From Haloterrigena sp. KLK7 (GTDB lineage: Archaea > Halobacteriota > Halobacteria > Halobacteriales > Natrialbaceae), in the NCBI RefSeq assembly GCF_037914945.1, contig NZ_CP149787.1:434001-498000 (forward strand): DNA of 64,000 nucleotides, in the 5' to 3' direction. Position numbers and translations under genes: made by a program. The notes beneath the pieces are model-generated. The model had not been told where the DNA came from. It made no database searches and saw only the letters and a list, made by a program, of their open reading frames with translations. Below are positions 110-51,724 of this stretch, in pieces (within the stretch, counting starts at the first letter, position 1; the number at the start of each line of letters is the position of its first letter).

Positions 110-230
110 TGCGCGGACCGGGATTTGAACCCGACTGCGAGACGGTCGCTCACTACGTTCGCGCTGCGACTCGCGTGCTTCAAATCCCTCTTCCGATTTC
201 TGCCGCTCGCGGTCTTGCTCGCAGCAGAAA
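110..230 (-). repeat. Module downstream of tRNA-Gly with partial tRNA copy
   Basis: Positions 110-132 repeat exactly, over 23 bases, the last part of tRNA-Gly (231-253: discriminator, acceptor strand and part of the T arm). Going towards the tRNA there follow CGAGACGGTCGC (138-149), then TTCAAATCC (179-187), an inverted T-loop sequence pairing with GGATTTGAA at 120-128, then a hairpin next to the tRNA. The same order and spacing recurs behind tRNA-Arg at 41132-41258. The short copy lacks D and anticodon arms, so it is not a tRNA gene. It looks like a target duplication left by a small element inserted at a tRNA 3' end. Confidence 0.7.
197..230 (-). terminator. Hairpin and T-run after tRNA-Gly
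   Basis: TTTCTGC (197-203) and GCAGAAA (224-230) form an inverted repeat that directly abuts the tRNA discriminator base. On the transcribed strand the tRNA is followed at once by TTT and then the hairpin, as expected for a tRNA trailer and termination site. An equivalent hairpin (TTTTCAC with GTGAAAA) lies at the same place behind tRNA-Arg. Confidence 0.45.
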
Positions 231-301
231 TGCGCGGACCGGGATTTGAACCCGGGCCATGAGCTTGGAAGGCTCAGGTCCTACCACTAGACCATCCGCG
301 C
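231..301 (-). tRNA. tRNA-Gly (anticodon TCC)
   Basis: The minus strand folds as a 71-base tRNA. The seven-base acceptor strand GCGCGGA (5' end at 301) pairs with TCCGCGC. The anticodon stem TGAGC/GCTCA encloses loop CTTCCAA with anticodon TCC, and the T loop is TTCAAAT closed by GGG/CCC. The discriminator is A at 231; CCA is not encoded. No intron is seen. The gene reads Gly codons GGA and GGG. Confidence 0.95.
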
Positions 302-41131: not shown

Positions 41132-41258
41132 TGGGTGCTGCAGGAGTATGAACCACGCCGAGACGGTCGCCTCGCGTTGCTCGGCGCTGCGTCTCGTCTC
41201 GTTCAAATCCTTCGCGGTTCAGTTTTCACTCCTCACGGAGTTGTTCGTCGTGAAAACA
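41132..41258 (-). repeat. Module downstream of tRNA-Arg with degenerate tRNA copy
   Basis: Positions 41133-41157 resemble, imperfectly, the tRNA-Arg 3' end at 41260-41284: GGGTGCTGCAGGA compared with GGGCGCTGCAGGA, then a copy of GAACC. There follow CGAGACGGTCGC (41159-41170), GCGCTGCG, TTCAAATCC (41202-41210), and a hairpin TTTTCAC (41223-41229) with GTGAAAA (41250-41256) next to the tRNA. Order and offsets match the module behind tRNA-Gly at 110-230 within a base or two. Confidence 0.6.
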
Positions 41259-41333
41259 TGGGCGCTGCAGGATTTGAACCCGCGACAGCTTGGTCCGAAG
41301 CCAAGTACTCTGTCCAGACTGAGCTAAGCGCCC
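41259..41333 (-). tRNA. tRNA-Arg (anticodon TCG)
   Basis: The minus strand folds as a 75-base tRNA. The acceptor GGGCGCT (5' end at 41333) pairs with AGCGCCC. The anticodon stem CTTGG/CCAAG encloses loop CTTCGGA with anticodon TCG. The T arm is GCGGG-TTCAAAT-CCTGC and the discriminator is A (41259). CCA is not encoded and no intron is seen. It reads CGA and probably other CGN codons. Confidence 0.93.
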
Positions 41334-51382: not shown

Positions 51383-51406
51383 TCACCTTCCCCTACGAGG
51401 AAATGG

Positions 51407-51724
51407 ATAGGTCGGGCAGTTAGGCCCTGCTCATTACCCGCGATATGGCCTTTAGCGGGGACCAAACACCGCGGGCGTCCGGTCAGACCGGCCGGGGCCC
51501 CGGGAGCCAACGCAGAAGCCTCGTCCGTCGGGGACAGCGGTCCGCGATGGCCGTCCGCAGGGACGTCCCATTGCGGTTAGTCGGCGACAGCCCATCAGGC
51601 GCGGAAGCGAGCAGTGGACCGCCGGACACCTGTCGCTCGACGGGTCGCGGGGTGGAGGAGGCAACCGGGATTCCCCCGGCCGGAACGCCGGGCAATCGCG
51701 GCTTCCACATTCATACCGACCTTT
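51407..51724 (+). ncRNA. 7S RNA of the signal recognition particle
   Basis: The start TAGGTCGGGCAGTTAGGCCC and the internal GGAGCCAACGCAGAAGCC and GGTGGAGGAGGCAACCGGG elements match haloarchaeal 7S RNA. The 5' AGGTCGG (51409-51415) pairs with CCGACCT (51716-51722), closing the molecule. Length is about 315 bases. It binds SRP19 and SRP54 and carries signal-peptide-bearing ribosomes to the membrane. Ends are estimated from pairing. Confidence 0.93.

Follow-up and report, generated by a model that had tools for sequence, protein, structure and literature searches.

A candidate gene-less integrative module at the 3' ends of haloarchaeal tRNA genes

The window considered here, i.e., the whole stretch of 64,000 nucleotides of Haloterrigena sp. 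KLK7 that was analysed (contig NZ_CP149787.1, positions 434,001 to 498,000), holds the genes of tRNA-Arg(TCG) and tRNA-Gly(TCC), and each of them is followed by the same short series of repeats and hairpins. Read with the tRNA, the layout is the tRNA end, a hairpin A, an inverted segment T', a hairpin B, and finally a direct copy of the last 21 nt of the same tRNA. In this notation T is the T-loop core GTTCRAATC and T' the inverted core; the direct repeats on either side are the two T-acceptor segments. The features are the following:

41259-41333, minus strand: tRNA-Arg(TCG), the host gene (ARAGORN and Rfam RF00005)
41259-41279, minus strand: copied tail of tRNA-Arg(TCG), its final 21 nt (from the sequence positions)
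41211-41258, minus strand: segment A at tRNA-Arg(TCG), hairpin A (41222-41258) plus the linker TGAACCGCGAA
41202-41210, minus strand: T' at tRNA-Arg, an inverted T-loop/T-stem copy, GGATTTGAA
41154-41201, minus strand: hairpin B at tRNA-Arg, CGAGACGAGACGC...GACCGTCTCGGCGTG (covariance-model match)
41133-41153, minus strand: degenerate direct copy of the tRNA-Arg tail, from T-loop to discriminator
231-301, minus strand: tRNA-Gly(TCC), hosting the second module (ARAGORN and Rfam)
188-230, minus strand: segment A at tRNA-Gly, hairpin 197-230 plus linker
179-187, minus strand: T' at tRNA-Gly, GGATTTGAA
131-178, minus strand: hairpin B at tRNA-Gly, with beta-type ends (covariance-model match)
110-130, minus strand: direct copy of the tRNA-Gly tail, 21 nt without mismatch

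A preliminary description had held that one architecture recurs behind both tRNAs, and the blocks and their spacings are located as it claimed: on the plus strand, CGAGACGGTCGC is found at 41159 (Arg) and 138 (Gly), GCGCTGCG at 41184 and 161, and TTCAAATCC at 41202 and 179; the hairpin comes next, at 41222-41258 and 197-230, respectively. For TTCAAATCC the position stands, while its nature has to be corrected, since in the tRNA direction this block is the inverted T-loop GGATTTGAA, the pairing partner of the direct copy. Alignment of the two trailers scores 32, a value that none of 2976 random segments from the window attained, and 24 was the maximum over 2000 dinucleotide shuffles. These shuffles and the tRNA-specific positions exclude a chance similarity of two GC-rich trailers. 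With regard to hairpin B, the covariance model scores E 1.8e-9 at tRNA-Arg (G000:C1:475143-475211) and E 2.1e-9 at tRNA-Gly, both copies having been in its training set. The linker TGAACCGCGAA is common to the tRNA-Arg(TCG) modules of other genera. The partial copy at 41133-41153 agrees with tRNA-Arg(TCG) in about 15-16 of 21-22 letters, so that it fits this tRNA and is degenerate, as had been noted; the older event proposed for this site is plausible because the local copy has decayed and other species carry intact modules there, with copies of 20-21/21. At the gathering score, Rfam reports only tRNAs and SRP RNA in the window (the archaeal SRP RNA gene lies at 51400-51711; RF01857, 194.8 bits), and a search 3' of tRNA-Gly gave no convincing weaker match. 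The module has no Rfam family match, and its identity with a known structured RNA was rejected on these grounds.

The module is not confined to these two genes. In the same genome, a BLAST search with the Arg trailer retrieved four further places, each directly 3' of a tRNA (Gly-GCC, Val-GAC, Met, and Val-TAC), and inspection of the flanks of the 47 tRNA loci revealed modules at about half of them. Over this unbiased set of the genome's own tRNAs, the 13-nt tRNA-specific tail recurs downstream with at least 11 of 13 matches in 22 of 47 cases, compared with about 0.9% in shuffles. Parsing yielded 29 candidate units, distributed over 24 tRNAs; three or more of these units are weak. A covariance model built from 22 cores gave about 30 matches in this genome at E<1e-3, every one 3' of a tRNA, and placed two tandem modules behind the intron-bearing tRNA-Trp.

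Additional copies near tRNA genes of other haloarchaea, whose lack would have spoken against the observation, are abundant: the covariance model matches 190 of 194 Halobacteria (G132, G136, G161, and G218 are the four genomes without any match). In a draw across the phylum it matched 14 of 15 Halobacteria and none of the 85 genomes that represented other classes. A DNA pattern scanned over 84,980 species was found in at least 120 stretches, and all 80 among the matches listed belong to Halobacteria. A same-strand tRNA lies no more than 600 nt upstream of 78 of the 84 pattern matches in named genomes; the other six comprise three at locus ends, two that follow an integrated element (L258, L298), and one with an inverted B (L309). 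The exact pattern gave 0 matches in 2.9 million viral contigs, and BLAST of the Arg module with its tRNA against plasmids and phages returned tRNA-like matches only; carriage of the modules on plasmids or phages was rejected on these two results.

Altogether 266 modules were parsed. They measure roughly 70-190 nt, contain no ORF, and have a segment A that is mostly 30-90 nt of hairpin. The direct copy is perfect in 163 of them, and over its eleven most tRNA-specific letters it matches its own tRNA at 10.35 on average, compared with 4.67 for other tRNAs. A copy of the local tRNA with at least 16 of 21 matches is present downstream at 211 of 314 loci and upstream at 5 of 253, the loci having been chosen in part for their modules. 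The inverted segment behaves differently: T' fits its own tRNA across the T-loop and 3-4 letters of the T-stem, and beyond that at chance level, even beside near-perfect direct copies. It is therefore an inverted core and no whole inverted tail. Reverse transcription primed by the tRNA is unlikely, as T' includes neither acceptor nor CCA. T':T and the inner stem of B covary, with 42 double-changed cells against 12.9 in shuffles; slid controls were exceeded as well.

As for tRNA-Arg(CCT), the copies agree with the T-stem variant of their own species (16+8 of 30, p 0.004). Here the 5' T-stem of the tRNA itself changes together with its proximal 3' end, which is not predicted by a simple replacement of the tail; because of this co-change, the discordant cases are ambiguous as to whether the proximal tail comes from the element.

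The comparison of relatives reveals how erratic the presence of the modules is. At the tRNA-Arg(TCG)/UbiA site, a module or a remnant occurs at 12 of 69 loci of one family, although some of the sites scored as absent hold other elements, so that absence does not always denote a virgin site. On the UbiA tree these 12 occupied loci require 11 state changes, compared with 11.2 for shuffled labels. Between the tRNA-Arg(TCG) loci L073 and L068 the difference amounts to exactly one module and one tail copy; a further precise pair of empty and occupied sites is offered by L066/L072 at the same tRNA, and another by L197/L230 at tRNA-Gln(TTG), within a single genus. Across 30 one-to-one tRNAs of three congeners, presence differs at 16. 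To judge from these sequence comparisons, the units appear to behave as mobile, and the direction of single events, gain or loss, is what we infer. The suggestion of a recurrent, possibly mobile unit is thus supported, and a probably mobile unit matched to each tRNA host is indicated by its occurrence at about half of the genome's tRNAs, its class-wide distribution, and its polymorphic sites. At the tRNA-Arg(TCG) site of G084 (L357) there is another kind of short insertion, in which tail and flank are duplicated (CTCACAGACGG...).

The two hairpins have different histories. A types are largely bound to tRNAs that have the same tail; they are common to several genera, yet differ within a genus. 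One 42-nt B, by contrast, recurs without any difference at the tRNA-Glu, tRNA-Gly, and tRNA-Ser of different species, and at tRNA-Arg(TCT) of two congeners (L146/L145) the A and the flank are constant while B differs. B types are thus exchanged freely between tRNAs and independently of A. As the T and T' cores are near-identical in all tRNAs, exchange at the cores keeps the tRNA-specific parts in place. Tandem modules with identical spacing occur, for example 115 nt in G250 and 122 nt in G131. In the tRNA-Glu module of Halostella pelagica (L309, 500-1100, minus strand), the B that stands between T' and T is in inverted orientation, and the tRNA-Glu is on the opposite strand; this is the sole inversion of B noticed among the parsed modules. 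The idea that beta-type B is an inverted alpha-type was ruled out, the interior having the same orientation. At tRNA-Asp (L175, L180, L028), whole tRNA genes form tandem repeats that are separated by modules, and G085 has as many as three such genes.

Another informative point is the strand of a tandem-GA/GNA-loop motif, GARCGNAGYGAG, which in the modules with the T-loop as core (class 1) occurs 130 times in sense and 3 times in antisense, with 7 occurrences in 61 kb of flank. In a second class, found at tRNA-Ala, Arg-GCG, and Gly-TCC, the core is the acceptor and not the T-loop, and there the motif is antisense only (0:6, few independent cases). Hence the motif tracks the orientation of the element and not the transcript, which favours folding as single-stranded DNA. 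C-GNA-G loops are exceptionally stable in DNA. Hairpin A folds better than shuffles, both as DNA and as RNA, and B alone shows no such advantage over them (median z about -0.4 to -0.7). In the class-2 modules L155, L163, L164, L213, L214, and L327 the acceptor stem is present in inverted and in direct copy, and at L327 such a module stands in tandem with one of class 1.

Integrative elements of ordinary size are encountered beside some modules. In Haloterrigena salina (L258, 1-3330), a decayed 3.1-kb element in tRNA-Val(CAC), with the same 21-nt core, separates the tRNA from its module; it encodes an Orc/Cdc6-like ATPase and possibly integrase debris (a weak match only), and its ends, when examined, had no A/T'/B. 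In Halorhabdus (L298, 1540-2700), an element that encodes an intact tyrosine integrase of 341 aa has a tRNA-acceptor-like end directly before the module. An integron integrase (TIGR02249) was above cut-off in 0 of 59 Halobacteria, and the Haloterrigena genome gave no match to it whatever.

What kind of entity, then, are these modules? The reading that we prefer, with a probability of roughly 45%, is that of a miniature, gene-less integrative cassette that recombines at the tRNA T-loop, probably via a tyrosine recombinase acting in trans. The cassette would sit at the tRNA 3' end in the order T-acceptor / A / T' / B / T-acceptor, and a site-specific recombinase, most likely of the tyrosine type and supplied by haloarchaeal integrative elements and Xer-like enzymes, would exchange strands within the T-loop. 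Such an exchange would leave the tRNA intact with a second tail downstream, its repetition would build tandem arrays, and B hairpins could swap between modules because the T and T' cores are near-identical across tRNAs. The substrate may be a folded single strand, like the attC of integrons, as suggested by the conserved T':B:T stem and by the stabilising motif on one strand. We infer both the recombinase and the folded-strand substrate. Against the cassette stands the fact that a double-stranded circle of 100-130 bp is sterically unfavourable, and we know of no excised form of the module, the exact pattern having found none in the viral contigs. The folding of B alone and the co-change at tRNA-Arg(CCT) likewise count against it. 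A bolder proposal, possible if rather doubtful, is that archaea possess a cassette system of their own, independent of the bacterial one of integrons: tRNA T-loops would be the docks on the chromosome, T'-B-T hairpins the folded single-strand recombination sites, and the enzyme a host recombinase that occurs across the Halobacteria.

The same observations can be read without any recombinase, as inherited quasi-palindromes that are copied and lost when replication slips between the 21-nt repeats; template switching would keep T' matched, and homologous recombination around tRNAs would spread the modules. Repeats of this length at distances of 70-190 nt are indeed easily lost by deletion, deletions mediated by repeats are on record for Haloquadratum (PMC3119063), and the copies at tRNA-Arg(CCT) track their own tRNA variant. 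We nevertheless hold this account unlikely, given the 11 changes required by twelve occupied loci, the A types that are common to several genera and differ within one, and the identical B at different tRNAs in different species. Similarly, the modules could be scars of ordinary integrative elements, i.e., fused attL/attR regions from larger proviruses or plasmids that lost their interior, the hairpins being leftover arm sites. A review of archaeal tyrosine recombinases reports integrases that target the T-loop and the 3' end of archaeal tRNAs, the T-loop being the dyad region used (PMC8371274), and integrase-bearing elements do insert at the same tails and adjoin modules (L298, L258). Yet the modules are far commoner than such elements and nearly uniform in layout, their stems covary, their B types are common to several tRNAs, the ends of the L258 element are devoid of the module's parts, and viral contigs gave no match; an origin as scars is accordingly not probable either.

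A role at the RNA level, suggested in the preliminary description, finds no support here. The module would be transcribed as a tRNA trailer, T' would compete with the T-arm, and the second tail would restore folding and tune tRNA maturation. The sense-strand bias of the class-1 motif, the covarying stems, and the folding of A would agree with this. However, the motif changes strand with the orientation of the element, being antisense in class 2, which counts against a trailer RNA; sister species differ erratically in presence at the same tRNA, and there is no Rfam family, so that we regard such a role as improbable. Least probable, and by our estimate very much so, is other target-duplicating machinery, such as a Cas1/casposase-like or a rolling-hairpin (HUH) enzyme. 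A target-matched 21-nt duplication with array growth at a tRNA would resemble CRISPR or casposon growth, but such an enzyme alone leaves T' and the exchange of B between T' and T unexplained.

Returning to the cassette, its likeness to known systems deserves attention. An integron cassette with its attC has the order core, cargo, inverse core, hairpin, core, the core site being GTTRRRY and the inverse core RYYYAAC. The modules share the succession core, A, inverse core, B, core, form tandem arrays, and possess a conserved stem with an asymmetric internal loop and one structurally preferred strand. Unlike integrons, they have as core the tRNA T-loop GTTCAAATC and not GTTRRRY (the module cores GTTCRAAT / ATTYGAAC carry a C where the integron consensus requires R), they lack a cargo gene, and they exchange B independently of A. 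With no integron integrase above cut-off added to the differing core and the missing cargo, membership among integrons is denied, and a likeness in mode of action is kept as a hypothesis.

Archaeal tRNA-integrating elements of the SSV, pR1SE, and SNJ2 types resemble the modules in their target, from T-loop to 3' end (class 1) or the acceptor (class 2), and in that the tRNA stays intact and gains a distal copy (PMC8371274); the modules differ in being gene-less and about 70-190 nt long, in their inverted core, and in residing at about half of the tRNAs at once. As in att-flanked tRNA elements, the direct repeat is the tRNA 3' end, the tRNA is intact, and the empty site is precise (L197/L230, L073/L068). 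The modules are, like CIMEs and MITEs, non-autonomous, flanked by direct repeats, and associated with precise empty sites; they are far smaller than CIMEs, and unlike in MITEs the inverted repeat is the host's T-loop with no transposase-specific terminus, and the duplication is 21 nt. A MITE in the sense of a DDE transposon derivative was rejected, because element-specific terminal inverted repeats and a short target duplication are missing. Prophage-associated partial tRNA duplications in Haloquadratum are likewise direct copies of tRNA 3' ends, of 22-43 nt, but they bound gene-bearing islands of 6-52 kb (PMC3119063). No published description of such modules was found in the open-access full text searched, and to judge by that literature the module looks like a previously unreported miniature mobile element with tRNA genes as its landing site.

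The modules explain many of the partial tRNA copies in haloarchaeal genomes, and the rapid turnover of sequence just 3' of the tRNA genes. If the cassette reading is true, roughly half of haloarchaeal tRNA genes would be docking sites for a tiny mobile unit, and nature would have provided a test case for three questions: by what route tRNA genes came to be integration targets everywhere, whether integron-like recombination of folded strands arose outside bacteria, and how one parasite can follow dozens of differing tRNA sequences.
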